The notes under the pieces were generated by a model. That model saw only the letters and a list, made by a program, of their open reading frames with translations. It ran no database searches and was not told the origin of the DNA. Made by a program: the position numbers and the translations under genes. Shown here in pieces: positions 18,893 to 31,125 of a stretch of 34,374 nucleotides of DNA. Source of the stretch: Cryobacterium sp. (GTDB lineage Bacteria; Actinomycetota; Actinomycetes; Actinomycetales; Microbacteriaceae); assembly GCA_014376815.1 (NCBI GenBank), contig JACMQV010000136.1, positions 1 through 34,374 of the forward strand, in the 5' to 3' direction. Position 1 is the first letter of the stretch. The number at the start of each line of letters is the position of its first letter.

Positions 18893-20011
18893 GAGGAGGC
18901 GGCAGACCGTCGCGACGGCCCGCTCGAGGTTCTTCGGGCCGTCCCTGAGCGCCTGCGGCAGGTCGCCGACCCCCGCCACGATCGGCACCAGGGCGCTGAA
19001 CCCGTGGTCGTAGAGGGCCTCGGCGCCGTCGCCGATCCGCCCGGCGAACGCGATCACCGGCACGTCGGCGCTCACGGCGACCTCGGCCACCCCGAGCGGG
19101 GTCTTGCCACCGAGGGTCTGGGCGTCGAGGCTGCCCTCGCCGGTGAAGACGTAGGCGGCCCCGGCCATCCGTGCAGAGAGGCCGGCAGCCTGCATGACCA
19201 CGTCGATTCCTCGCCGCAGCCGGCAATCGAAGCAGGCCAGGAAGGCCGCGCCGAGCCCGCCCGCCGCACCGGCACCGGGCAGCCCCGCGACGTCGCGCCC
19301 GGTGGCCTCGGCCAGCACCCGGGCGTAGACGGCGAGGGCCGCGTCGAGCTCACGCACCGTCTCGTCGTCCGCGCCCTTCTGCGGACCGAAGACGGCGGCG
19401 GCGCCCTCGGCGCCGAGCAGCGGGTTGGTCACGTCGCTGGCGATCTCGAACGTCGCGTCGAGCAGTCGAGGGTCGAATCCGGCCAGGTCGATCCGGGCCA
19501 GCCGCGCCAGCGCCGCGCCCCCGCCGGGGAGGTCCCGGCCGTCGGCGTCGAACAGCTGTGCGCCGAGGGCGTGCAGCATCCCGGCGCCGCCATCGGTGGT
19601 CACGGAGCCGCCCAGCCCGATCACGAACCGGCGCGCGCCCCGGTCCAGCGCATCGGTGATCAACCGCCCCACGCCGAACGTGCTCGCGATCCGCTGGTCC
19701 CGGTCGGCCGGGTCGATGAGCTGGATGCCCGCCGCAGCCGCGATCTCGATGATCGCCAGCCGTTCGTCGGCCACGTAACCGTACCGGGCGACGAGCGACC
19801 GGCCGAGCGCATCCTGGGCCGCCGCATCCACGAGCGCACCGCCGCGGGCGGCCACGAGCGCGTCGACGGTGCCCTCGCCGCCGTCAGCCATCGGCAGGCC
19901 CACGCACTCCGCGTCGGGGAACACGGTCCGGACGCCCCGCTCCATGGCGGCGACAGCCTCGGCCGCGGACATGGATTCCTTGAACGAGTCGGGGGCCAGA
20001 ACGAACTTCAT
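18878..20011 (-). CDS. glxK: Glycerate kinase
   Basis: A 377-residue kinase of the GlxK/GarK family, which phosphorylates D-glycerate (to 2-phosphoglycerate in bacterial members) and feeds glycolysis from glyoxylate or serine breakdown. It opens VLAPDSFKESMSAAEAVAAM, the family hallmark, and continues PMADGGEGTVDAL, IGLGGSVTTDGGAGMLHALG and FTGEGSLDAQTLGGKTPLGV, the conserved blocks lining the active site. The length is normal. It is divergent from the luciferase-like gene and no glyoxylate carboligase or tartronate reductase gene is nearby. It ends within a short tandem repeat. Confidence 0.93.
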   Translation of the reverse strand: MKFVLAPDSFKESMSAAEAVAAMERGVRTVFPDAECVGLPMADGGEGTVDALVAARGGALVDAAAQDALGRSLVARYGYVADERLAIIEIAAAAGIQLIDPADRDQRIASTFGVGRLITDALDRGARRFVIGLGGSVTTDGGAGMLHALGAQLFDADGRDLPGGGAALARLARIDLAGFDPRLLDATFEIASDVTNPLLGAEGAAAVFGPQKGADDETVRELDAALAVYARVLAEATGRDVAGLPGAGAAGGLGAAFLACFDCRLRRGIDVVMQAAGLSARMAGAAYVFTGEGSLDAQTLGGKTPLGVAEVAVSADVPVIAFAGRIGDGAEALYDHGFSALVPIVAGVGDLPQALRDGPKNLERAVATVCRLLALRR

Positions 20012-20074
20012 GAGGTTGATCCTCCCGGGTCTCGGCTGCCCGGCGCAAACGGATCAGTGGGGCGGCGTGGCGCG

Positions 20075-20080
20075 TAGGCT
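20075..20080 (+). promoter_or_regulatory. -10 hexamer for leaderless transcription of the luciferase-like gene
   Basis: TAGGCT lies 7 nt before ATG 20088 and no ribosome site precedes the ATG. The same hexamer occurs before the PNPOx-family gene on the other strand. Confidence 0.5.
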
Positions 20081-20087
20081 CGAATTC

Positions 20088-21080
20088 ATGCGATTTGGAC
20101 TCTTCATACCCCAGGGCTGGCGTCACGACCTGGTCGGCATCGACCCTGCCGACCAGTGGGCGGCCATGAGCGGCCTCGCGGCGCACGCCGACGCGGGCGA
20201 CTGGGAATCGATCTGGGTCTACGACCACTTCCACACCGTGCCGGTGCCCAGCGAGGAGGCCACCCACGAAGCCTGGACGCTGATGAGCGCGTTCGCCGCG
20301 ACCACCTCCCGGGTGCGGCTCGGCCAGATGTGCACCTGCATCAGCTACCGCAACCCCGCCCACCTGGCGAAGGTTGCTGCGACCATCGACATCATCTCCG
20401 GCGGGCGGGTCGAGATGGGCATCGGCGCCGGCTGGTACGAGCACGAGTGGCGCGCCTACGGCTACGGCTTCCCGCGCGCCGGCGAGCGACTGGCCCGCCT
20501 CGACGAGGGCGTGCAGATCATGCGCCAGGCCTGGACGACCGGCACGGCCACCCTCGACGGGCAGCACTACCAGGTGGACGGCGCCATCGTGCGGCCGCTT
20601 CCGCTGCAGCCGGGCGGCATCCCGATCTGGATCGCCGGCGGCGGCGAGAAGGTCACCCTGAAGATCGCGGCGAAGTACGCGAACTACACCAACTTCGACG
20701 GCTCGCCCGAGGGCTTCACGTACAAGAGCGATCTGCTCCAGGCGCACTGCGCCGCCGTCGGCACCGACTTCGACGCCATCACCCGCTCCGCGAACTACAA
20801 CACCGTGATCGGCGCAACCGAGGCCGAAGTCGCGCAGCGCCTCGACGCCATCCAGGCCCGGGTCACGCCCTACCTCGGCGAGGACGGCGCGGAATCGTTC
20901 ATGGCCGAGTACCGCAGCGGCACCGCGGCGGGCGTCGGCACGCCCGAGCAGATCGCCCGGCGCCTGCACGGCATGAAGGAACGCGGCCTCGGCTACGCCA
21001 TCCACTACTTCCCCGAGGCGGCCTACGACCGCTCCGGCATCGAGCTGTTCGAGCGCGAGGTCATGCCCGCGCTGCGCTGA
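20088..21080 (+). CDS. LLM class flavin/F420-dependent oxidoreductase
   Basis: A 330-residue luciferase-like TIM-barrel enzyme. It starts MRFGLFIPQGWRHD, and shows WESIWVYDHFHTVP (strand 2), AATTSRVRLGQMCTCISYRN, then DIISGGRVEMGIGAGWYEHE, the best conserved block of F420-dependent members, and IPIWIAGGGEKVTLKIAAKY. These support coenzyme F420 or FMN binding; which of the two is not decidable. The substrate is unknown. ATG 20088 is chosen since the longer frame to 19869 runs antisense through the glycerate kinase gene. It is divergent from that kinase, 76 bp apart. Confidence 0.88.
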   Translation: MRFGLFIPQGWRHDLVGIDPADQWAAMSGLAAHADAGDWESIWVYDHFHTVPVPSEEATHEAWTLMSAFAATTSRVRLGQMCTCISYRNPAHLAKVAATIDIISGGRVEMGIGAGWYEHEWRAYGYGFPRAGERLARLDEGVQIMRQAWTTGTATLDGQHYQVDGAIVRPLPLQPGGIPIWIAGGGEKVTLKIAAKYANYTNFDGSPEGFTYKSDLLQAHCAAVGTDFDAITRSANYNTVIGATEAEVAQRLDAIQARVTPYLGEDGAESFMAEYRSGTAAGVGTPEQIARRLHGMKERGLGYAIHYFPEAAYDRSGIELFEREVMPALR

Positions 21081-21165
21081 CCCCGCCCCCACCCCCGACC
21101 CGCCCCTGGGCGGATCGCCCGCGCGCCGGCACCTCCGATCCTGATCCCGGCCCCACCCCCGCCGA

Positions 21166-21227
21166 GTTCGCCACTTCCGGTCGAGTTCGACCGGCACACC
21201 ACGCGAACTCGACCGCAACGGTCGAAC
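21166..21227. repeat. 62-nt nested inverted-repeat element, word GTTCG
   Basis: The word GTTCG stands at 21166-21170 and 21185-21189, its inverse CGAAC at 21204-21208 and 21223-21227. Spacers and loop are all 14 nt. The inner arms pair over 12 bp (21178-21189 with 21204-21215) and the outer over 10 bp (21161-21170 with 21223-21232), with a symmetric 7-nt internal loop. Its constant parts are nearly identical to those of the element at 26637-26698. It lies about 80 nt after the stop of the luciferase-like gene, with no U tract. Confidence 0.85.
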
Positions 21228-21257
21228 TCGGCGCATCAGAGCACGAGGATGGAACCC

Positions 21258-22430
21258 ATGAGCAACACCAGGCCCACAGCCGCCACCGCGCCCGCCCGCA
21301 TCACCTGGCAGGAGGCCGGGCAGCCCCGGTCGGCGCTCTGGCACTCCGAGAGCAACTGGGCTCCGCCGAAACGCATCGTGATCGCCGACGACACGATGAC
21401 CGCGGATGCCGCCTATCGCCTCGCGCAGAACGGCACCGGCATGCTCTGGCGGGGCGACTTCCAGGGCGCCCGCCAGCTGCTCAGCGCCCTCGCCCGCCGG
21501 GTCGATCGCGGCCGGCACACGCCCACCACGGACCTGGCCGCCGCGTTCCGGCGGTACCGGTCGGAGGCGCTGCGCCGGGCTCAGCTGCTGGGCCTGGTGC
21601 TGGTGCCGCTGGAGTCGGACTACACGGTGCCGCTGCGCCGCGCCCCCGATGTGCGGCAGGCCTGCACCGAGACCTACGGCCCGGCGACGGATGCCTCGGT
21701 GACCGCCCTGCGCGAACTGGTCGGCGTGATCGGGGCGCATGAGTGGCGCACCACCGGCGTCGACGTGCCGGCTCTCGGCGCGCGCATCCACCCGCACTAC
21801 GGCGTCTTCTCCCCCGTGCGCGGCGAGTACCTCGACCTGGTCAACACGGCCCCGCTGCCGGACGCCGCCGCCGGGCCCACCGGCACCGCGTTCGACATCG
21901 GCACCGGCACCGGAGTGCTCGCGGCCGTGCTCGCCCGCCGTGGCATCCGTCACGTGGTCGGCACCGACCAGGAGCCCCGGGCCCTGGCCTGCGCGCGCGA
22001 AAACGTCGCCCGGCTCGGCCTGGCCGGTTCCGTCGACATCGCCCGGGCCGACCTGTTCCCGGCCGGGCGCGCCGACCTGGTGGTCTGCAACCCGCCGTGG
22101 ATCCCCGCCTCCGCCGTCACCGCCACCGATTTCGCCGTCTACGACCCGGACAGCCGGATGCTGCGGGGCTTCCTGGCCGGGCTGGCCGACCACCTCGAGC
22201 CGGCCGGCGAAGGCTGGCTCGTCCTCTCCGACATCGCCGAGCACCTGGGCCTCCGCTCCCGCGGTGCACTCCTCGACCTGATCGAGGACGCCGGCCTGGA
22301 GGTCGTGGCCCGCCTGGACACCAAGCCGGTGCACCGCCGCGCGACCGACGCGGCCGACCCCCTGCACGCGGCCCGGTCGAAGGAAACGACCTCGCTCTGG
22401 CGGTTGCGGGCGGTCACCGCGCCGAAGTAG
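21258..22430 (+). CDS. Class I SAM-dependent methyltransferase with NPPW motif
   Basis: A 390-residue methyltransferase. The SAM-binding motif I is DIGTGTGVLA (213-222), an acidic residue follows in GTDQEPRAL, and the catalytic motif is NPPW (278-281). The (N/D)PP(Y/F/W) signature marks enzymes that methylate amino groups of nucleobases or glutamine (HemK, RsmC, RlmF types). The N-terminal 200 residues, including HYGVFSPVRGEYLDLV, may bind the substrate. I use ATG 21258, spaced properly from GGATGGAA; the ATG at 21249 has its purine stretch too close. The target, probably rRNA or a translation factor, is an inference. Confidence 0.82.
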   Translation: MSNTRPTAATAPARITWQEAGQPRSALWHSESNWAPPKRIVIADDTMTADAAYRLAQNGTGMLWRGDFQGARQLLSALARRVDRGRHTPTTDLAAAFRRYRSEALRRAQLLGLVLVPLESDYTVPLRRAPDVRQACTETYGPATDASVTALRELVGVIGAHEWRTTGVDVPALGARIHPHYGVFSPVRGEYLDLVNTAPLPDAAAGPTGTAFDIGTGTGVLAAVLARRGIRHVVGTDQEPRALACARENVARLGLAGSVDIARADLFPAGRADLVVCNPPWIPASAVTATDFAVYDPDSRMLRGFLAGLADHLEPAGEGWLVLSDIAEHLGLRSRGALLDLIEDAGLEVVARLDTKPVHRRATDAADPLHAARSKETTSLWRLRAVTAPK

Positions 22431-22449
22431 ACCCGGCAGGAACCGCCGA

Positions 22450-23904
22450 TCAGGCCGGGACTTCTGCTGTGACGGGCTTCGGGATGAGGAAGGATGCCGC
22501 TAGCGAGGCCAGAGTCAGCACGAACCCGACCGCGACCACCACGAAATACGAGGTTTGCGTGTCGGTGGAGGCACTCACCACGGCCAGGGTTGACGGGAGC
22601 ACCAGGAAACTCAGGCCGGCGCCGAGGTTGAAGGCCCCCGCGTTCATTCCGGGCAGAAAACCCGGGTTCCCGGGTGGGGATAGAACCACGCCAAGCCCAT
22701 TGAGCATGATGTTTGCCGTGCCGGCGTAGAGAATGCCGAGCAGGGCCGCGCCGACGATCATCAGCGGCAGGCTGCCGAGCCCGCCGATTCCGATGACAGC
22801 CAGCGCGAGGGCGCTTCCACCCAGCCCGATGCGGAGCATCCTCGTGTAGCCGAACGTGGGTGCGAGACGACCGCTGAACGGGCCGACGAGCCAGCCCAGG
22901 AGTGCATAAGGGGTGAGGATCATGAGCGCCATCTGGGTGGGATTCACCGCGAACCCCGGGGCGGCGGCCTGAACGTACGCCGGCACGATGCCGTTGATGA
23001 CCGCGAAGATGCCGGTCATGGCGAGGGTGGTCGTCAGCAAGGGCGCCCAGGTGGATCTCCGACGAAGGTGAACGATCTGCACCATCGGCTCTCTCCCGTT
23101 CTTCTCCACCGACCAGAAGGCGGCGAATGCCGCGGCAGAAACCGCGATCAGCCCAATGGCAAGGGCCAGGGTGCCCGCCGAGAAGCCGCTGGCCAGGGTC
23201 GCAGCCTCGTTCAGCGCGGTCAGGACGGCCCCGACAGCCACGACGATGCAGAACGCGCCAAGCCAGTCCATCCGGGTTCCCGCTGCGGGCCGTGATTCGA
23301 CGGCCAGGAACAGGACCAGAACCAGGGCAACCACCGAAAAGCCGACCATGAGCCAGAAGATGCTCCTGAAGCCGAAGTGTTCGGCGAGATAGCCTCCGGC
23401 GAAGGAGTCGATTCCGGCAATCCCCCCATTGACCGCCGCGACGAAGCCCATCAGGGTCCCGTACTTACGCGGATTGGAGATGGCGGAGCGGAGCATGATC
23501 AGGCAGAGCGGAACCGTGGGCCCACTGACGCCCTGAATGATGCGGCCGACGAACAACCACGTCACATCCGGCGCCATGGCCGCAACCACGGAGCCGACAC
23601 CCATCAGGGCCATCATGCCCAGCAGGATCCTCTTCCGGCCGACGATATCGCTCAGGCGCGGCAACACCAGGGAGAACAATGCGGCCGCAGTGAAGAACCA
23701 GGTCTGGGATAGGCCGATGGCGGCCTGATCGGCTCCCAGCTCGTCTCCCATGGTGACCAGGGCCGGGCTGAGCATGCTCGCGTTGAGTTGAAAGGCGACG
23801 CACGCGGCCAGGAGCGCGGTCATCAACGCAGCCGTGTTGACGGTCGTGCGGGTGCCCGTGGGCGTGGAAGACGGTGTGGACGAGGGCGTCAGGGTCGCGG
23901 TCAT
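22450..23904 (-). CDS. uriT: MFS transporter, probable nucleoside (uridine) permease
   Basis: A 484-residue major facilitator of the DHA2-like 14-helix type. The loop 2-3 motif is RLSDIVGRKRILLG, and a GRIIQGVSGPTVPL motif C-like block follows; a Ser/Thr/Pro-rich stretch of about 20 residues precedes helix 1. It overlaps the nucleoside hydrolase stop by 4 bp (ATGA), so both are on one message. In Corynebacterium glutamicum the uri cluster pairs an MFS uridine transporter (UriT), a nucleoside hydrolase (UriH) and a LacI regulator (UriR); the set here is the same without the local ribokinase. The symbol rests on that context, since sequence alone does not separate it from drug exporters. Confidence 0.72.
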   Translation of the reverse strand: MTATLTPSSTPSSTPTGTRTTVNTAALMTALLAACVAFQLNASMLSPALVTMGDELGADQAAIGLSQTWFFTAAALFSLVLPRLSDIVGRKRILLGMMALMGVGSVVAAMAPDVTWLFVGRIIQGVSGPTVPLCLIMLRSAISNPRKYGTLMGFVAAVNGGIAGIDSFAGGYLAEHFGFRSIFWLMVGFSVVALVLVLFLAVESRPAAGTRMDWLGAFCIVVAVGAVLTALNEAATLASGFSAGTLALAIGLIAVSAAAFAAFWSVEKNGREPMVQIVHLRRRSTWAPLLTTTLAMTGIFAVINGIVPAYVQAAAPGFAVNPTQMALMILTPYALLGWLVGPFSGRLAPTFGYTRMLRIGLGGSALALAVIGIGGLGSLPLMIVGAALLGILYAGTANIMLNGLGVVLSPPGNPGFLPGMNAGAFNLGAGLSFLVLPSTLAVVSASTDTQTSYFVVVAVGFVLTLASLAASFLIPKPVTAEVPA

Positions 23905-24848
23905 GACTCAACGTCTCCAATCCGCACCAGAGCATCAGTGATCAGGTTCCAGAAGCGCTCGGTATCGAGGGCGACCGCCACAGAAGTCGTGCAATCAGCG
24001 GGAGCTGGGGCGCGGAAATCGGCGACGGTCATCCCCAGGGTGTGGGTGCCCGTCAGTTCGACGGTGACGGGGACCTTCCGCGTGGAGACGATGCTCGGGT
24101 CGATGACATAGGCGACCGCGCACGGGTCGTGCACCGGCGGCGAGTCAAAACCCTGCACATCCCGATAGGTTTCTCCAAAGAATTCCAGCAGTTCGCCGAC
24201 GAATCGGGCCGGCCCGGTGCCCACGTCGGCGATCTGCGCGGCAACCGCCGGTGTCGCGAGAGCCTGGTGGGTCAGGTCCAGTCCGACCATGACGACCGGC
24301 CATTTCTCGTTGAAGACGATGTGCGCCGCCTCCGGGTCGACGATGATGTTGAACTCCGCGACCGCGCTCCAGTTGCCCACATGGCAGCCTCCGCCCATCA
24401 GGACGACTTCCTTGACGCGGCCTACGATTCGCGGTTCCTTGCGCGCGGCCATGGCGATGTTCGTGAGGCCGGCCGTGGGCACGAGGGTGATCGTGCCCGG
24501 TTCGTGGGCCATGACGAGGTCGATGATCAGGTCGACCGCGTGGCGCGGGTCCAGCGCCAGGGTCGGCTCCGGTAGAGCCGGTCCGTCAAGCCCTGACTCA
24601 CCGTGGATGGACGGGGCGGTTTCGATCTCCCGCACGAGAGGGCGGGAACAGCCCGCCGCGAACGGCACATCCGTGATGCCGGCGATCCGGGCCACGGCCA
24701 GTGCGTTGCGAGTCACTTTCTCGAGCGTCTGGTTTCCCACGACGGTCGTGACGGCCAGCAAGTCGATTTCGGGACTGCCGTGAGCGAGGAGGATCGCGAT
24801 CGCGTCATCGTGGCCGGGGTCACAGTCGAGAATGATCTTTTTAGGCAT
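23901..24848 (-). CDS. uriH: Nucleoside hydrolase (probably pyrimidine-preferring)
   Basis: A 315-residue inosine-uridine-preferring nucleoside hydrolase that splits ribonucleosides into base and ribose. The Ca2+-binding motif is LDCDPGHDDA (7-16); the middle has VVLMGGGCHVGNWSAVAEFN, with the AEFN/VDPEAA block contacting ribose; the C-terminal HDPCAVAYVID holds the conserved His-Asp. The spelling of these motifs is closest to RihA/RihB/UriH-type enzymes. I start at ATG 24848, with GGAG 4 nt upstream, not at ATG 24863. The promoter region contains LacI-type sites, so control by the divergent regulator is likely. Confidence 0.88.
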   Translation of the reverse strand: MPKKIILDCDPGHDDAIAILLAHGSPEIDLLAVTTVVGNQTLEKVTRNALAVARIAGITDVPFAAGCSRPLVREIETAPSIHGESGLDGPALPEPTLALDPRHAVDLIIDLVMAHEPGTITLVPTAGLTNIAMAARKEPRIVGRVKEVVLMGGGCHVGNWSAVAEFNIIVDPEAAHIVFNEKWPVVMVGLDLTHQALATPAVAAQIADVGTGPARFVGELLEFFGETYRDVQGFDSPPVHDPCAVAYVIDPSIVSTRKVPVTVELTGTHTLGMTVADFRAPAPADCTTSVAVALDTERFWNLITDALVRIGDVES

Positions 24849-24914
24849 GGTGCTCCACTTCATTGGGGACGTTGCCCACCCTTGGGTTGTGGCGGCTGCA
24901 GCGTGCTCACTCGT

Positions 24915-24943
24915 ATCCTGCGCTTCGATAACGCCGAAGTCAA
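24915..24943 (-). promoter_or_regulatory. Probable promoter of the nucleoside hydrolase-transporter operon
   Basis: On the minus strand TTGACT (24943-24938) is followed by a 17-nt spacer and CAGGAT (24920-24915). The -35 is good, the -10 is poor. The LacI-type site 24939-24952 overlaps the -35, which would fit repression. Confidence 0.5.
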
Positions 24944-24952
24944 ACGCTTAAC
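24939..24952. promoter_or_regulatory. LacI-type operator site 1 of the uri intergenic region
   Basis: GTCAAACGCTTAAC is a near-palindrome around a central CG (24945/24946), with mismatches at two position pairs. It overlaps the -35 of the nucleoside hydrolase promoter. A half-site GTCAAGCG follows at 24962-24969. Confidence 0.6.
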
Positions 24953-24983
24953 TTGCTTATCGTCAAGCGCTGATCGGCTGAGG

Positions 24984-24999
24984 CGTCAAACGATTGACG
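24984..24999. promoter_or_regulatory. LacI-type operator site 2 of the uri intergenic region
   Basis: CGTCAAACGATTGACG is palindromic over 16 bp around the central CG (24991/24992) except for one pair. It is about 50 nt upstream of the uriR -10 hexamer and 45 nt from site 1, roughly four helical turns, so two regulator dimers on one DNA face are possible. Confidence 0.65.
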
Positions 25000-25037
25000 T
25001 CGGGGAGACGTGCGCAGCCGACGGGGAGCCCGCCCGG

Positions 25038-25043
25038 TACCAT
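25038..25043 (+). promoter_or_regulatory. -10 hexamer for leaderless transcription of uriR
   Basis: TACCAT is followed by 6 nt and then ATG 25050, with no ribosome site. It has the same spacing as the hexamers at 3854 and 10781. Confidence 0.5.
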
Positions 25044-25049
25044 TGGCTC

Positions 25050-26096
25050 ATGGCCATCCCCGGCGCAGCCAGCGAGATCCCCGGTCACCCGCCGCGCGTC
25101 ACGGCTGCCATGGTCGCCGATCGAGCCGGAGTTTCCGTTGCCACGGTGTCATTGGTCGCCAGCGGCAAGACCGGGGGCCGAGTGTCGGCGGGAACCGTCG
25201 CCCGGGTACGAGGCGCCATCGCCGATCTCAACTACGTGGTCAACCGCGTCGCCAGCTCACTGGCGACCGGATCGAGCAACTTCGTCATCCTGGTCGCCCC
25301 GGACATATCGAATCCATTCTTCGCCCGGGTCATCACCGGGGTGCGGGAGTCTCTCGGGTCGTCCTACCAGCTGCTCCTGTCCGTCACCGACTCCGGCCAG
25401 ATGCCCCGAGAAGAAAACGTGCGGGAACTGCTCGCCTTCCGGCCGGCGGGGCTACTGATCGACGCCCCGAGCCCACAGCTCATGCGCTACCTCGGCGCCG
25501 ACGTGCCGATCGTGCTTCTGGACGCTCCCGGGACGCAGAACTTCGCCCCGGCCGTCAACCTCGATGTCGTGCACGGCGCCGAAGCACTTGCCGTTCATCT
25601 TGCAGAACGCGGCCACCGCCACGTCGGCTACCTCGACAGCGTCACTGCCGCGCCGACCTTCGAACTCAGGCGGACGGCATTTCTGGCCAAGGCCGAGAGT
25701 CGCGGGATGACCCGACCCGGCTCCCCCCGCGCCCGCAGCACGATCGACGTCGGTTCGGCCGCCGAGGAATTCAGGAAGGTCTGGCCGGCCTGGGACCGCG
25801 CCGGCGTCACGGCTGTGGTCTGCGCGACGGACACCCACGCCTACGGCGTGCTGCAGGCGGCCCAGTCGCTGGGAGTGCGGGTTCCCGAAGACCTCGCGGT
25901 GGCAGGTTTTGACGATTTGCCCTACTCCGCGATGAGCCAGCCGAGCCTGACCAGCGTGGAGCTGCCCGCCCGGAAGCTCGGTCGGGCCGCCGCCGCGCTG
26001 CTCACTGCGCTGATCCAGGGTCGGGACTCCACCAGCGCCTCTCCCCTCCTGCCCAGCCGTCTGACAATCCGGGAATCGACCGGCGATTCGACGTAA
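25050..26096 (+). CDS. uriR: LacI-family regulator of the nucleoside module
   Basis: A 348-residue LacI/GalR regulator. The helix-turn-helix lies at about 17-40 (VTAAMVADRAGVSVATVSLV) and the hinge at VNRVASSLATG; the effector domain has DISNPFFARVITG, LLDAPG and AVAGFDDLPYSAMSQPSLTS. The recognition helix differs from that of RbsR (VSVATVSLV versus VSAATASRV), in line with different operators in front of the two modules. It is divergent from the nucleoside hydrolase-MFS operon and three sites lie between them. The UriR role is by analogy with C. glutamicum; the effector is unknown. Confidence 0.83.
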   Translation: MAIPGAASEIPGHPPRVTAAMVADRAGVSVATVSLVASGKTGGRVSAGTVARVRGAIADLNYVVNRVASSLATGSSNFVILVAPDISNPFFARVITGVRESLGSSYQLLLSVTDSGQMPREENVRELLAFRPAGLLIDAPSPQLMRYLGADVPIVLLDAPGTQNFAPAVNLDVVHGAEALAVHLAERGHRHVGYLDSVTAAPTFELRRTAFLAKAESRGMTRPGSPRARSTIDVGSAAEEFRKVWPAWDRAGVTAVVCATDTHAYGVLQAAQSLGVRVPEDLAVAGFDDLPYSAMSQPSLTSVELPARKLGRAAAALLTALIQGRDSTSASPLLPSRLTIRESTGDST

Positions 26097-26105
26097 GCCG
26101 GCGTG

Positions 26106-26486
26106 TCAGTCGCGACCTGCGGCACCGTTCCTTTCCCCGGCCAGACGCCACCGGGACCAGGGCCAGACTCCGTCCATCTCCACCTCGAGGGAGAAGCTGA
26201 GCAGCACCCGGATCACCACGATCGCGCCCAGGACCAGCACGCTCTGCGGGGTCGGATCCACGAGGATCGTGCGGATGATGTCCGCGATGATCAGCACCTC
26301 GAGGCCGAGCAGGATGGCCCGGCCGAGATTTCGGCGCAGCGCGCCGTAGGCGCCCTGCCGGGCGTCGGCGCGCAGCACGGCCGGCACGGCGGCGATGACC
26401 GCCGCCGCCCCGCCGAGCACCATGATGGCCGCGCCGGCCGCCTCGACGACCCGAATCACCGCCGAGATCACCTGCTCAAAGTCCAT
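26106..26486 (-). CDS. DUF1622 family membrane protein
   Basis: A 126-residue protein with two to three hydrophobic helices (about 12-38, 62-84 and 88-105). The segment RNLGRAILLGLEVLIIADII is the signature of DUF1622 proteins, small membrane proteins of unknown function. ATG 26486 has GAGGAG about 7 nt upstream, and TACTCT (minus strand, 26521-26516) may be its -10. The C-terminal tail is charged and cytosolic. It converges with uriR, 9 bp apart. Confidence 0.82.
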   Translation of the reverse strand: MDFEQVISAVIRVVEAAGAAIMVLGGAAAVIAAVPAVLRADARQGAYGALRRNLGRAILLGLEVLIIADIIRTILVDPTPQSVLVLGAIVVIRVLLSFSLEVEMDGVWPWSRWRLAGERNGAAGRD

Positions 26487-26541
26487 CGGGCTGCTCCTCG
26501 ACTCGGGTTGCTGCGAGAGTAGCGCGCGGCGCTGGGCCGGG

Positions 26542-26640
26542 CTATGGCAGGCGGACCACCGCCCGGTAGCGGGCACGCAGCTCCGGGTCGAGGTGTTCGG
26601 TGGCGTAGCTGAGCATGGTCCGCGGCAGCCGCCCGACAGT
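26542..26640 (-). pseudogene. C-terminal gene remnant of unknown family
   Basis: On the minus strand the last 32 codons before the TAG 26544-26542 read GRLPRTMLSYATEHLDPELR and then ARYRAVVRLP, which looks like the helical C-terminus of a real protein, possibly a DNA alkylation repair or HEAT-like protein; I do not recognise it firmly. Upstream the frame enters the inverted repeat at 26637-26698 and becomes Arg/Ser-rich and unlike protein. No start is present, so the gene has lost its front part, at or near the edge of the repeat. Confidence 0.5.
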
Positions 26641-26698
26641 GCCCGTTCCGGTCGAGAGTGACCGGCGCGACGGGCACTCTCGACCGGAACGGTGATTT
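26637..26698. repeat. 62-nt nested inverted-repeat element, word GAGTG
   Basis: The inner arms 26643-26660 and 26675-26692 are perfectly complementary over 18 bp around a 14-nt loop. The inner word GAGTG (26656-26660) has a near copy CAGTG at 26637-26641, 19 nt upstream, and the inverse CACTC at 26675-26679; the outer right copy (26694-26698) has decayed. The constant spacers share 12 of 14 (left) and 13 of 14 (right) bases with the element at 21166-21227, and the loop starts with the same ACCGGC. Confidence 0.85.
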
Positions 26699-26845
26699 TC
26701 GTCGCGGTGAGGCCGACGAAGCGGCGATTCGTTGCGAGAAGTCGCAAGAAAAAGCCGGTCGGCTCCAGCTACTCTGGACCTTGGCGCTGACGCTGGCGCC
26801 GCCCCACGCCGCACCCGCGGCACTCACGAAGGACGGGAGGTTCCC

Positions 26846-28225
26846 ATGTCGAATTACGTTGCGCAGGACGCACTAATCGGAGAGCCCGAGGTTCTCGAGG
26901 ATGTCGCCACCCACCCGGCCTGGCACCGCCTCAAGTCAGCCGCCACGGCGCTGCAGGCCAGCCAGGTACAGGACGGCTCGATCCCGAACACCGACGCGCA
27001 CGCGGATGCCGCGGCCCACGTCGACGTGATCTGCGCCGCCATCGACCTGCTCGCGCCGCTGTTCCCGCACGACGCCGCCTACCTCGCGGCCTCGGTCCGG
27101 GACTTCGAGCGCTGGCGCGGCGCGGACTTCGGCCTGCCGGACTTCTACGACTCCCTGATGGCATTCCAGCCCCAGCAGAACCGGGCCGACGGCATCCGTC
27201 ACCTGGTCGTGTTCCCGATGTACACGCAGAACGGCAGCGCGAACCGCCTGGTCGAGGCCGTACTGATCGAGGTCATCTGGCCGGCGTTCATCGACGAGTT
27301 GGAGGAGGAGTACACGAACAAGTTGTTCGTGCCGATCCGGTTCCTCGATTTCACGCCCGGCTACGACACCAACTCCGCCGTGCTCTTCCCCGAGACGGTG
27401 GCGATGCGCGAGATCCCCACCTTCACCTGGGGTGCGATCTTCGCCGACCGCGAGGCGGCCCGGTTCCGCCGGGTCGTGCGCGCCGCCGCCGAGATCACGC
27501 GTCTCAAGCTGCCGGAGGACGCCGCGGCGCTGCTCGACGACCAGCACCTCACCGAGGAAATGTTCGTCATGTGGGACCTCATCCACGACCGCACGCACAT
27601 GCGCGGCGATCTGCCATTCGACCCGTTCATGATCAAGCAGCGGATGCCGTTCTTCCTCTATTCCCTCGAGGAACTGCGCTGCGACCTGACCGCGTTCCGC
27701 GAATCGGTCACGATCGAACGCGACGAGAGCGCCAGCCCGGAGGCGCGGAAGCACGCGAAACTGGTGCAGTACGGCGTGATCTTCGACCGGATCTTCCGGT
27801 TCTCGATCACCGGCAGCCGGGTGCGCAACTACGACGGCCTCGGCGGGCAGCTGCTGTTCGCGTGGATGCACCAGCACCACGCGCTGCACTGGACCGACAC
27901 GGCCCTCACCTTCGACTGGGACGCCGTGCCCGACGTGGTGATCGCGCTCGGAAAGCAGATCGACGACCTCTACTGGGCGTCGATCGACCGGCCGAAGAAG
28001 TCCCACTGGCTGGCCGCCTACGACATGATCGCCGAGACGCTCACGCCCAACCCGGCCTCGCAATGGTCGCGCGGCCTGCCGCTGGAGGTGCTGGCCGGCC
28101 CGCCGAAGGGGTACACCGACCTGGTCCTGGACGACGAGTTCCCGCTGTCGATGTTCTTCGAGGCGCTCGACAAGAAGATGAAGCCCGTGATCGAGTCGAC
28201 GGCCGGACTCACCGGGCGTGACTGA
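26846..28225 (+). CDS. DUF6421 family protein, function unknown
   Basis: A 459-residue soluble protein of an actinobacterial family of unknown function. No signal or membrane segment is seen. A cluster of potential metal ligands stands out: IHDRTH (His247, His251) followed by EELRCD (275-280) and HQHHALHW near residues 375-383. The region PGYDTNSAVLFPETVAMR, about 171-188, is also distinctive. A strong GGGAGG site lies before ATG 26846. Its stop overlaps the start of the next SDR gene by 8 bp, so the two are coupled and probably act together. An enzymatic, metal-dependent role is my inference only. Confidence 0.82.
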   Translation: MSNYVAQDALIGEPEVLEDVATHPAWHRLKSAATALQASQVQDGSIPNTDAHADAAAHVDVICAAIDLLAPLFPHDAAYLAASVRDFERWRGADFGLPDFYDSLMAFQPQQNRADGIRHLVVFPMYTQNGSANRLVEAVLIEVIWPAFIDELEEEYTNKLFVPIRFLDFTPGYDTNSAVLFPETVAMREIPTFTWGAIFADREAARFRRVVRAAAEITRLKLPEDAAALLDDQHLTEEMFVMWDLIHDRTHMRGDLPFDPFMIKQRMPFFLYSLEELRCDLTAFRESVTIERDESASPEARKHAKLVQYGVIFDRIFRFSITGSRVRNYDGLGGQLLFAWMHQHHALHWTDTALTFDWDAVPDVVIALGKQIDDLYWASIDRPKKSHWLAAYDMIAETLTPNPASQWSRGLPLEVLAGPPKGYTDLVLDDEFPLSMFFEALDKKMKPVIESTAGLTGRD

Positions 28226-28910
28226 CACCCCGGGCAGCGACGTCGGCCGCGCCGTGGCCGGTCGCACCGTGCTCATCGCCGGTGCGACCAGCGCGGCCGG
28301 CCGCGCCGTGGCGACCGCGCTGACGGATGCCGGCGCCCGCGTGATCGCGGTCGGCTCCAACGACGTGCGCCTCCAGGGCATGCGCCGTGACCTGCCCGGC
28401 CTGCTCACGTACCGCTCTGACCTCGGCGACTTCGCCGCGGTCACCTCCCTCGCCGACGCCGTTCGGGCCGACGCCGGCCCGATCGACGGCCTGATCCACC
28501 TGGTCGGCGGCTGGCGCGGCGGCGGCGGCCTGGCCGGCCAGAACGACGAGGACTGGGACTTCCTGCACGGTCATGTCGTCGCGACCCTGCGCAACACCAC
28601 CCGTGCCTTCAACGACGACCTGCTGGCCTCCCCGGCCGGCCGGCTGGCGATCGTGTCGTCGGTGTCGGTCGACAAGCCCGCCCCGGGCGGCGCGAACTAT
28701 GCCGCGGCGAAGGCCGCCGCGGAGACCTGGACCCGCGCGGTCGGCCAGGGCTTCGCGAAGGCGGGCACGGATGCCGCGGCGGTCATCTTCGTCGTGCGGG
28801 CCCTCGACGGGCTCGAAGCCACCCTCGCGGCCGAGGTCGTGGGTCTGTGGGACGTGCCGGCGGCATCCGTCAACAACACCCGCATTCTCCTGGCCCCGCC
28901 GACATCGTGA
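28218..28910 (+). CDS. SDR family oxidoreductase coupled to DUF6421
   Basis: A 230-residue short-chain dehydrogenase. The nucleotide-binding loop is AGATSAAGRAV (21-31), a divergent form of TGxxxGxG; the catalytic Tyr161 and Lys165 (YAAAK) and a Ser at 147-148 are kept. It has HLVGGWRGGGG (94-104) where classical SDRs have NNAG, and a short C-terminus. The GTG start lies inside the end of the DUF6421 gene (8-bp overlap). The altered loop may reflect an unusual cofactor or a non-catalytic role. Confidence 0.85.
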   Translation: MTDTPGSDVGRAVAGRTVLIAGATSAAGRAVATALTDAGARVIAVGSNDVRLQGMRRDLPGLLTYRSDLGDFAAVTSLADAVRADAGPIDGLIHLVGGWRGGGGLAGQNDEDWDFLHGHVVATLRNTTRAFNDDLLASPAGRLAIVSSVSVDKPAPGGANYAAAKAAAETWTRAVGQGFAKAGTDAAAVIFVVRALDGLEATLAAEVVGLWDVPAASVNNTRILLAPPTS

Positions 28911-28918
28911 GTCACTGA

Positions 28919-28980
28919 CTGTTGCCCGAGCGGACAACTGTTGCCGTCACGCCGGGAACAGTTGTCCGATTGGGGCACAG
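28919..28980. repeat. 62-nt nested inverted-repeat element, word CTGTT
   Basis: The word CTGTT stands at 28919-28923 and 28938-28942; its inverse is exact at 28957-28961 (AACAG) and one base off at 28976-28980 (CACAG). Spacers and loop are 14 nt. The inner arms pair over 12 bp (28931-28942 with 28957-28968), and pairing continues in register with a few mismatches out to 28918/28981. It begins 8 nt after the SDR stop. Geometry matches the elements at 21166 and 26637, whereas the backbone sequence is only about half identical. Confidence 0.8.
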
Positions 28981-29074
28981 TTGGGCGCGGAACGGCGCGG
29001 GAACGGGCGCGGGTACAGGACGTGTGCCGGGGTGGGCCGCTAACGTGGTCGGGACAGGCTACGGAGGGGTAGGC

Positions 29075-29959
29075 ATGCTCGAGATCAGGGGCGTGAACAA
29101 GCGGTACGGCGCCCGCGCGGTGCTGACCGATGTGAGTTTCGGCGTCGACGGCGGCCGGCTCACCGGTTTCGTCGGCGCCAACGGGGCCGGCAAGACCACG
29201 GCCATGCGCATCATCCTGGGCGTGCTCTCCGCCGACTCGGGCACGGTGCTGCGGGACGGCGCGCCCCTGACCATGGACGACCGCCGCCGATTCGGCTACA
29301 TGCCGGAGGAGCGCGGCCTCTACCCGAAGATGAAGGTCGGGGAGCACCTCGTCTACCTGGCCCGACTGCACGGGCTGAGCTCGGCGTCCGCGCGCCGCAA
29401 CACCGCCGAACTGCTCGAGCGCCTCGGCCCCGGCGAGCGCGCCGGCGACCTGGTGCAGTCCCTGTCGCTGGGCAACCAGCAGCGCGCCCAGATCGCGGCC
29501 GCCCTCGTGCACGACCCCGAGTTCCTCGTGCTCGACGAGCCGTTCTCCGGCCTCGACCCGATCGCGGTGGAGGCGGTCATGGAGGTGCTTTCCGACTATG
29601 CCGCCCAGGGCGCGCCGGTGCTGTTCTCCTCGCACCAGCTCGACATCGTCGAGCGCCTCTGCGATGACCTCGTGATCATCGCCGACGGGCAGATTCGCGC
29701 GAACGGCTCTCGGGAAGAGCTGCGCGAGCAGCACAGCAGTCCCCGCTTCGAGTTGCGCTGCGACGGGGATTCCGGCTGGATCCGGGACGTGCCCGGCATC
29801 TCGGTGATCGAGCTCACCGGCGGGCTCGCCGTGTTCGAGGCCGACACGGACGCCGCCAGCCAGGCCGTGCTGCGGCTGGCCGTCGATCGCGGACCGGTGG
29901 CCTCCTTCAGCCAGCAGCGACCCAGCCTCGCCGCCATCTTCAGGGAGGTCGTGAAATGA
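29075..29959 (+). CDS. ABC transporter ATP-binding protein (NatA-like)
   Basis: A 294-residue ATPase. Walker A is GANGAGKT (34-41), the Q-loop region reads YMPEERGLYP (75-84), the signature is SLGNQQRAQ (131-139), Walker B is FLVLDEPFSGLD (150-161) and His187 is the switch histidine. The MPEERGLYP form and the 80-residue C-terminal extension are typical of the sodium/drug exporter type (NatA, YhaQ). ATG 29075 has GGAGGGG upstream, and a TAACGT about 33 nt upstream may be the -10. The gene overlaps the permease gene by 4 bp. Confidence 0.9.
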   Translation: MLEIRGVNKRYGARAVLTDVSFGVDGGRLTGFVGANGAGKTTAMRIILGVLSADSGTVLRDGAPLTMDDRRRFGYMPEERGLYPKMKVGEHLVYLARLHGLSSASARRNTAELLERLGPGERAGDLVQSLSLGNQQRAQIAAALVHDPEFLVLDEPFSGLDPIAVEAVMEVLSDYAAQGAPVLFSSHQLDIVERLCDDLVIIADGQIRANGSREELREQHSSPRFELRCDGDSGWIRDVPGISVIELTGGLAVFEADTDAASQAVLRLAVDRGPVASFSQQRPSLAAIFREVVK

Positions 29960-31125
29960 GCACCGCAACCGGAACCGGAACCGATCCCGGCACGGCGGCC
30001 GGCGCCGCAACCGGCACCGCCCGCCTCCGTCCCGAGCATCCGGCGCCCCGCTTCGGCCGGAGTGTGCGGCTGGTCGCCACCCGCGAGATCGTCGCCCGGC
30101 TGCGCAGCAAGGCGTTCCTGATCTCCACCGGCATTCTGCTGCTCATCTCGATCGGCTCCGTCGTCGCCGGCGGCATCGCCAGCCAGAACCAGACCCTGCC
30201 GAAGGTGGCCGTAGTGGGCGCGGCCGGCCAGGTGCTCGCGGAGACGAAGGCCTTTACCGCGGTGAAGGCGGACGATGTGGACGCCGCCGAGGCACTGGTC
30301 CGCGCCGGCACGGTGTCTGCGGCCGTCGTCCCCGCGACCGACGAGGTCTCCCCGCTCGGCGTGCGCGTCATCGCCCTCGACTCCGCCCCGCTGGTGCTGC
30401 TGGGTGCCCTGAGTGTGAGCCCGCCCGTGAGCCTGCTCGAGCCGTCCCCGCAGAGCGGCGGACTCGTCTACCTGGTGGCCCTCGGCTTCGGGCTGGTCTT
30501 CTTCATGTCCGCGATCACCTTCGGATCGACCATCGCGCAGAGCGTGGTTGAGGAGAAGCAGACCCGCGTGGTGGAGATCCTGATGACCACCATCCCGGTG
30601 CGGGCCCTGCTCGGCGGGAAGGTCGTCGGCAACAGCGTGATGGCCTTCGGGCAGATCCTGGCGATCGGCTCGCTGGTGGCGATCGGCATGGCCGCGACCG
30701 GCCAGAGCGGGCTGCTGGGCGCCATCGGGCCGTCGATCGTCTGGTTCGCCGTGTTCTTCGCGTGCGGCTTCGTGATGCTCGCCGCCCTGTTCGCCGCGAC
30801 CGCGTCGATGGTGTCCCGCCAGGAGGACGTCGGGTCGGCGACCTCCCCCGTGCTGGTCCTCGTGATGATCCCGTATTTCCTGGTGATCTTCTTCAACGAC
30901 AACCCCACGGCGCTCGCCATCATGTCCTACATCCCGTTCTCGGCCCCGGTCGGCATGCCGATGCGCATTTTCCTGGGCACGGCCCTGTGGTGGGAGCCGC
31001 TGGCCTCCCTGGCCATCCTGCTCGCGGCGACGCTGGTGGTCATCCTGCTCGGCTCGCGCATCTACGCCAACTCCCTGCTGCGGATGGGTGCCCGGGTCAC
31101 GTTCCGTCAGGCCCTGCGCGGCTGA
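29956..31125 (+). CDS. ABC-2 type permease (NatB-like)
   Basis: A 389-residue membrane subunit. After a disordered Thr/Gly-rich N-terminus (1-35), ATREIVARLRSKAFLISTGI leads into helix 1, followed by an extracellular domain (about 75-165), and then five helices with the cytoplasmic motif SVVEEKQTRVVEILMTTIP, the hallmark of NatB/YhaP-type ABC-2 exporters. It works with the preceding ATPase as an exporter. No substrate-related gene is adjacent; sodium or a small toxic compound is possible. Confidence 0.88.
   Translation: MSTATGTGTDPGTAAGAATGTARLRPEHPAPRFGRSVRLVATREIVARLRSKAFLISTGILLLISIGSVVAGGIASQNQTLPKVAVVGAAGQVLAETKAFTAVKADDVDAAEALVRAGTVSAAVVPATDEVSPLGVRVIALDSAPLVLLGALSVSPPVSLLEPSPQSGGLVYLVALGFGLVFFMSAITFGSTIAQSVVEEKQTRVVEILMTTIPVRALLGGKVVGNSVMAFGQILAIGSLVAIGMAATGQSGLLGAIGPSIVWFAVFFACGFVMLAALFAATASMVSRQEDVGSATSPVLVLVMIPYFLVIFFNDNPTALAIMSYIPFSAPVGMPMRIFLGTALWWEPLASLAILLAATLVVILLGSRIYANSLLRMGARVTFRQALRG

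Follow-up and report, generated by a model that had tools for sequence, protein, structure and literature searches.

Why do three intergenic sites within 8 kb of a Cryobacterium genome share one geometry while spelling it with different letters? The window, i.e., the whole stretch of DNA analyzed here, comprises 34,374 nucleotides (positions 1 to 34,374 of contig JACMQV010000136.1, GenBank assembly GCA_014376815.1, forward strand). As first read, at each site a 5-nt word is followed by a 14-nt spacer, the word again, a 14-nt center, the inverse word, a second spacer, and the inverse word once more. The best explanation (probability roughly 0.58) is that the sites belong to a superfamily of mobile repeats that are miniature, fully palindromic, non-autonomous, and about 70 bp long, and whose families were probably founded with different words rather than having their words swapped in place. 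Among the options that a sequence-only reading of the window had listed, a mobile element with a variable tag fits best. The three sites belong to a large and apparently undescribed set of ~70-base intergenic palindromes in Cryobacterium and its relatives.

Layout of the three sites

21159..21234 (62-nt core 21166-21227), no strand assigned: copy 1, family A, word GTTCG, longer CGAGTTCG
26630..26705 (62-nt core 26637-26698), no strand assigned: copy 2, family B, inner word GAGTG
28912..28987 (62-nt core 28919-28980), no strand assigned: copy 3, family C, word CTGTT

The letters of all three copies were checked. Copy 1 carries its word exactly at all four places (GTTCG, GTTCG, CGAAC, and CGAAC), and copy 3 reads CTGTT, CTGTT, AACAG, and CACAG, with one mismatch in the fourth word. 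Copy 2 (CAGTG, GAGTG, CACTC, and GATTT) has one mismatch in its first word and lacks the fourth. The recurrence of one layout at all three sites, as first read, stands for copies 1 and 3 and fails for the outer right end of copy 2. The inner pair is complementary in each copy (GTTCG/CGAAC, GAGTG/CACTC, and CTGTT/AACAG), and the spacer identities given for copies 1 and 2 (12/14 and 13/14) are correct. The center had been taken for a 14-nt loop; it is in fact mostly stem and consists in family C of 5 bp, a CATA-like tetraloop, and another 5 bp. In copy 1, the stem also runs outward past the core (CGCCGA...TCGGCG), and the 30-nt arms are 87% complementary.

A strict layout was defined as one whose inner pair is exact and whose outer words have no more than one mismatch each. 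By this definition, the window contained two (copies 1 and 3), compared to a mean of 0.117 and a maximum of 1 in 60 first-order Markov shuffles. The layout is thus not equally frequent in shuffled sequence, which had been proposed as a check.

Three dispersed families with a rigid frame

Each copy has relatives in its own genome, a 3.10 Mb draft of 301 contigs (87.5% complete, 6% contamination). With both strands counted, copy 1 as query gave 34 matches at E<=0.001, and copies 2 and 3 gave 49 and 27 matches, respectively, at E<=0.01. In the examined part of this genome, three dispersed families with 54 copies are present (19 in A, 21 in B, and 14 in C), where a copy was counted if at least 41 positions match one of three 62-nt consensuses.

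The frame is rigid. It aligns without gaps over 76 columns in 48/54 copies (one A and five B copies left out), and in this alignment columns C14, CGG 20-22, C24, A26, and C33 are each invariant or at least 90% conserved. The element folds into a hairpin of roughly 29 bp that is closed by a 4-nt loop, and within each arm the 5-nt word recurs at 19 nt. The four word positions are called W1 to W4 in the following; W1 and W2 lie on the same arm, and the pairs are W1:W4 and W2:W3. With the partner in register, 77.0% of cells pair, and with a slid partner 28.6-42.9% do. The covariation scores are 0.353 and at most 0.112, respectively; they compare the three families and hence reflect differences between them. 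The pairs changed on both sides (27) are not in excess over shuffles (26.6), which speaks against structure. A search with a shared-core pattern gave 30 places per strand, compared to 3 in a control.

A chance origin of the three sites was rejected, as each copy has its own homologous family, the frame is gapless, and the shuffle test points the same way. The evidence from homology is the stronger part, ahead of the shuffle count.

Word and frame in other genera

The sequence-only reading had described a fixed frame carrying an exchangeable, self-complementary word. This description holds beyond the three families. In a sample of 54 elements from as many genomes (the best match of each; 57 loci minus the own one and two of odd length, with one base-shifted), W1 equals W2 in 16/54, compared to a permuted mean of 1.57 and a maximum of 6 in 5000 permutations. 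Among 24 elements of other genera, the equality occurs in nine (permuted mean 0.80), and these carry nine different words: CCGCG, GAACA, GACCG, GCGCC, GCGTT, GTGAG, GTGCG, TAGTG, and TTGAG. Because W1 = W2 is kept with such different words, word and frame are separable. In the same 24 elements, the words hold 0.46 bits per column and the spacer 0.92 bits, figures that lean toward the frame, as the elements were found with a model. In stretches of Agrococcus and Naasia, other words (CGACC and CGGGCC) can be seen by eye at the 19-nt spacing. The equality of W1 and W2 is a strong tendency and no law.

The same period emerges from a search for long hairpins that is blind to words, after which arm self-similarity was scored by shift. 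It returned 18 hairpins in 375 kb of the own genome (a sample rich in stretches picked for their copies), 30 in 389 kb of the genome labeled G024, 11 in 200 kb of G044, and five in 200 kb of G203, which belongs to another genus. Self-similarity peaks at a 19-nt shift in 4/4 sets (own genome 0.56, G044 0.43, G203 0.39, and G024 0.32). Other shifts give 0.17-0.34 in the own genome, G044, and G203, and the peak in G024 is weak, with 0.31 at shift 27. No hairpins were found in 200 kb of G026, a congener lacking matches to the model R1 described below, or in 200 kb of G084, which has such matches elsewhere in its genome.

Two other hairpin types were noticed in these genomes. G044 has five copies in 200 kb of a CGCGAGCCGTGAG...CCCCGAAAA-like hairpin (L311:18507, L315:891, L315:17578, L316:9734, and L318:19314; handles beginning with L denote loci), which has an inner stem rich in A/T and resembles a terminator-type repeat. 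G203 contains two CACGAGTTGCTGGGTTTGCACCGGTT-like hairpins (L297:17473 and L298:9629), in which no 19-nt word is obvious by eye.

Distribution among genomes

Model R1 was built from the families. At a threshold of E 0.001, it matches in 39/57 Cryobacterium genomes, many of which have as many matches as the 84 candidates scored (both strands) or come close to this number, and the other 18/57 congeners have no match at that threshold. Within the family Microbacteriaceae, 63/299 genomes have matches (the own genome and four congeners included), which cover 32/85 genera. In an order-wide sample, 24/297 genomes match at E 0.0001, four of them from the family and 20 from other families. Because of stricter filters, searches over more than 40 genomes miss weak matches, and the absences are hence upper bounds. 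The model search that had been suggested as a check thus recovered further copies in the own and in related genomes, and their occurrence between species is patchy.

A word-free core pattern (TTCCGG-N10-CCGG-N4-CCGG-N10-CCGGAA) was run against one genome each of 84,980 species and found in 19 stretches. Thirteen are from Cryobacterium, one from Agrococcus, and one from Naasia, all Microbacteriaceae; the four elsewhere (Humisphaera, Desulfopila, Actinopolyspora, and Lewinellaceae) are taken for chance matches. In two contigs of C. shii (L119 and L124), the element positions lie within matches of G030, which is of the same genus as the window, in agreement with Cryobacterium as that genus. Carriage by phages or plasmids was rejected for family B, the only family searched, as its consensus has no blastn match at E 0.01 in phage and plasmid collections.

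Four word sites at 19-bp spacing, two direct and two inverted, with words that differ by family, would also suit a non-mobile chromosomal array bound by a regulator or nucleoid protein, with paralogues of different specificity. Such an array would not account for an element number that ranges within the genus from 0 to the best 84 matches scored (both strands), for positions that are lost or gained, or for words that vary independently within a copy, and it is considered very improbable.

Words within families and at orthologous sites

The words look like family marks that stem from a founder and mostly decay later. Within families, W1 and W2 do not covary (permutation P of 0.47 in A, 0.13 in B, and 0.21 in C), and neither do W1 and W4 (0.65, 0.78, and 0.36). 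For W2 and W3, the values are 0.57 in A, 0.23 in B, and 0.03 in C. Stem compensation was assessed in 51/54 copies (19 A, 18 B, and 14 C). Family A has no compensatory excess in any stem part and family B no significant one (lowest P 0.07, for W1:W4). Spacers in A and B pair as independent arms would (219/266 and 208/252 cells compared to 222.5 and 209.5 after permutation), so decay in these two families is largely independent between the arms. Family C behaves differently. Its spacers have 12 compensatory cells compared to 5.3 after permutation, with 0/2000 permutations as high, and pair in 163/196 cells compared to 146.9; compensation at W2:W3 is weak (P 0.04).

Orthologous sites give a similar picture. 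At the copy 2 site, the fourth word GATTT is common to G000, G010, and G007, and GGTTT is found in G031. At the copy 3 site, the first word CTGTT is kept in G000, G009, G021, and G040, and one spacer pair is A:T in G009 and G:C in G021. At the L161 site, the element is kept in five species; the outer left word is CTGTT in four of them and CTGGT in G032. The inner word is mismatched in G032, G018, and G039 and is paired yet different in G041 (GTGCA/TGCAC) and G042 (TTGCG/CGCAA). The strongest example of a two-arm change at a single site is L161, where it is restricted to the inner pair, although independent insertions at one place may have produced the difference. No joint change of all four words was seen at the copy 2, copy 3, and L161 sites. 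The proposal that four words swap together is not supported by these data, since words within families are independent and the GATTT of copy 2 is shared by relatives; the comparison of orthologous loci, which had been proposed to reveal switches in concert, showed none at the three sites.

The alternative of compensatory change or templated repair fares better in part. Quasi-palindromes can be corrected by template switching during replication, in which one arm is copied onto the other. This would make words match again and sometimes spread a new word through one copy, in line with the spacers of family C, the W2:W3 value, the paired inner words at L161, and the A:T and G:C pair at the copy 3 site. 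Families A and B do not have the significant coupling this predicts, G000, G010, and G007 all retain the mismatched fourth word of copy 2 (which reads GGTTT in G031), and correction leaves both the identity of W1 and W2 on the same arm and the dispersal of the elements unexplained. Correction as the source of the pattern is quite unlikely. Because the inner words at L161 are altered on both arms, its probability was nevertheless raised slightly, and that of mobile repeats was lowered slightly to the value given above.

Turnover between species

26106..26486, minus strand: DUF1622 gene (Pfam PF07784), divergent from the DUF6421 gene
26846..28225, plus strand: DUF6421 gene (Pfam PF19985), downstream of copy 2
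28218..28910, plus strand: short-chain dehydrogenase (SDR) gene (Pfam PF00106), with copy 3 at its 3' end

The surroundings of copies 2 and 3 allow the sites to be followed between species. A 2.7-kb query containing the DUF6421 gene matches in 57/57 genus genomes, and the SDR gene served as the syntenic reference for comparing orthologous sites. Downstream of SDR, the loci of 29 relatives were compared (the G013 locus is without the SDR end). A C element follows the gene in G009, G021, and G040 and a related one in G008 and G016; G024 has an A-type element, and G030, G010, G028, G007, and G031 have none. A 20-kb block is syntenic in ten relatives. Within it, elements occupy four places shared by G000 and G030, where they are unequally degraded, and G030 has at least one more. 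Many other stretches of this block are without elements or have them elsewhere. The case for mobility rests on this dispersal and patchiness.

Several further palindromes were seen at these sites. A second hairpin kind (GCGGG...GCGGGTGGC/GCCACCCGC...) lies behind SDR at L208, L209, L211, L215, and L216 of distant congeners. It is unrelated in sequence, yet within each of its arms a word again repeats directly at 19 nt (six examples at five loci); a strict pattern for its center gave no match in the other stretches scanned. At L212 (G017), a long AT-rich inverted repeat (GCATAACTCCTGCAATTT...AAATTGCAGGAGTTATGC) stands 3' of the SDR gene, where others carry elements. A further family with the word GAGTC and a spacer without TTCCGG is present at L254:6527, L255:9242 (G010), L174 (G050), L197:3908 (G031), and L194:1398 (G030). 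Near the copy 2 site it lies beside a B element in G031 and alone in G030.

Position at gene ends and hairpin folding

Among the 54 copies in the window's genome, tandem gaps contain 23, convergent gaps 15, and divergent gaps 6; a further 7 copies are at contig ends, and 3 are inside called genes. For intergenic positions drawn at random, the shares are 47% tandem, 12% convergent, and 40% divergent; for the 44 classifiable copies, the departures in convergent and divergent gaps each have a binomial P of ~1e-4 (4e-4 and 0.01 against gap counts). Within tandem gaps, 16/23 copies are nearer the stop (P 0.047). All gene positions are from a simple, crude gene caller. In the window, two copies had been placed close behind stop codons. 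This is right for copy 3, whose core starts 8 nt past the SDR stop codon (28908-28910); copy 1 starts 86 nt past a stop (21078-21080), and copy 2 lies between the divergent DUF1622 and DUF6421 genes.

As RNA, the three copies fold strongly, with minimum free energies of -47.2, -48.8, and -47.8 kcal/mol (z -7.4, -5.8, and -7.8) for copies 1, 2, and 3, respectively. Three terminator-like sites with a T-run occur within 20000-30000, none of them at a copy, and shuffles give 3.4. The elements resemble intrinsic terminators in their strong GC-rich hairpin and frequent position near stop codons. They differ by the missing T-run at the three copies and by a conservation of sequence and word that exceeds what a hairpin needs. 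The suggestion of U-tract-free terminators thus has positional support, and the T-run is indeed absent at all three copies; a transcript-end role is plausible as a by-product.

A larger role for this function is unlikely, though it deserves more weight than template switching. Bidirectional transcript-end hairpins under selection, with the repeated word as a side effect of their origin, would explain the folds, the excess in convergent gaps, and the position near stops. They would also explain why unrelated palindromes (C-type, A-type, and the second kind) stand at the SDR 3' end in different species and why spacers of family C change in compensation. Selection for a hairpin, however, does not demand that W1 equal W2, and pairing in families A and B is no better than that of independent arms. 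The missing T-run, the position of copy 2 between divergent genes, and the 18/57 congeners without an R1 match speak against it as well.

Evidence weighing against mobile repeats

The reading of the elements as mobile repeats has to be set against several observations. In seven sets of stretches (~1.8 Mb, parts of genomes), neither an autonomous copy nor a flanked transposase was found, and an autonomous element that uses the arms as its ends was not seen. Neither the SDR site nor the 20-kb block nor L161 yielded an unambiguous empty site with a duplicated target, the flanks in these comparisons being too diverged. The element-free G005 at L161 looks like a deletion with a remnant, which means that a missing element need not indicate an empty target. 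In 38/54 elements, W1 and W2 are not the same. The compensation in the spacers of family C and the inner-word change at L161 are not predicted by pure decay. Finally, the draft assembly carries 6% contamination, patchiness partly rests on the strict-filter searches that lose weak matches, and the gene-end bias rests on a gene caller that missed at least one Pfam-supported gene (19869-21080).

Half-elements that face inward occur twice in the ~1.8 Mb, at the L107 contig end and at L259. The former (L107:3150-3462, end of contig C292) folds back through a B half-element and its flank, which is probably an assembly artifact at the palindrome; several further copies are found at distances of up to 300 nt from contig ends. 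At L259 (G031), a B and an A half-element (L259:9243 and L259:14736) face each other over 5.5 kb, either by chance or as the ends of a larger element.

Relation to known repeat systems

Miniature inverted-repeat transposable elements (MITEs) are short, non-coding, palindromic, dispersed, and patchy. The Cryobacterium elements are alike in all these properties and differ in that neither a target-site duplication nor a parent transposon was found in the parts searched. In the inverted repeat/direct repeat (IR/DR) ends of transposons such as Sleeping Beauty, each inverted repeat encloses a direct pair of binding words. Two direct words per inverted arm are also found here, with the difference that no gene lies between the arms in the copies read and that the arms meet at a tetraloop. 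Integron attC sites are imperfect palindromes as well, in which shape counts over sequence; they would be set apart by their box spacing.

The closest comparison is to repetitive extragenic palindromic (REP) sequences and REPINs, which are extragenic and multi-copy, with two inverted arms that form a hairpin, and are reported as non-autonomous mobile DNA (PMC3116915, PMC2817692). The same sources describe several sequence groups per Pseudomonas genome, each near its RAYT transposase. The Cryobacterium elements share the extragenic position (3/54 inside called genes), the copy number, the hairpin, and the several groups per genome. They differ in architecture, as REPINs consist of two short REPs and a spacer and the elements of one 62-76-nt palindrome with words 19 nt apart per arm. 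They also differ in the enzyme: PF01797 (Y1_Tnp, RAYT) was found in 0/57 genus genomes at E 0.001, with control matches in 5/14 genomes, and mobilization by a RAYT was rejected for PF01797. By analogy, the elements may work like REPINs, yet they are no RAYT-REPIN system.

The sequence-only reading knew no described family with this rule, and literature searches and Rfam (0 gathering-score matches in the window) gave none. The literature on Microbacteriaceae and Cryobacterium held no description of these repeats, in a survey with most subscription papers outside its scope. In the portions consulted of two Microbacteriaceae genome papers (PMC5552033, PMC6106888), "palindrom" appears solely in a reference on clustered regularly interspaced short palindromic repeats, and the main text of a paper on GTAG/CGTC-tagged palindromes (PMC3733652) has none of the actinobacterial names looked up.

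Proposed origin and significance

In the proposed mechanism, each family would have grown from a palindromic source element. Each arm has two word places 19 nt apart, often with the same word, which would give four sites in IR/DR order. An enzyme encoded elsewhere would read frame and words and spread the element in trans, so that the four word sites are its putative footprint. A change of recognition specificity would have let a source element with another word found a further family. Inserted copies would be inherited and drift, and in family C the two arms would stay coupled to some degree. Survival would be mostly at gene 3' ends, off promoters, where the hairpin may be harmless or useful as a transcript end.

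There is a real chance that the mobilizing system is new. A wider proposal is put forward tentatively, with the odds leaning against it: a class of mobile palindromes across the Microbacteriaceae, perhaps across the order, with a rigid four-site 19-nt frame, a freely exchangeable word, and a non-RAYT enzyme that evolves its word specificity. If true, this class would offer a natural series of matched enzyme-site pairs, and, given the 19-nt rule of the second hairpin kind, recognition would depend on the frame and not on the sequence.

For annotation, it is of use that the palindromes recur near some draft contig ends and at gene 3' ends. The data further suggest that multi-copy palindromes of the REPIN type need not depend on a RAYT. 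If the mobile-repeat reading is right, a repeat class common in these actinobacterial genomes has so far lacked a name, in which geometry and sequence, usually fused in recognition sites, are separated, and the families would represent a natural experiment in the specificity change of a DNA-recognizing enzyme.

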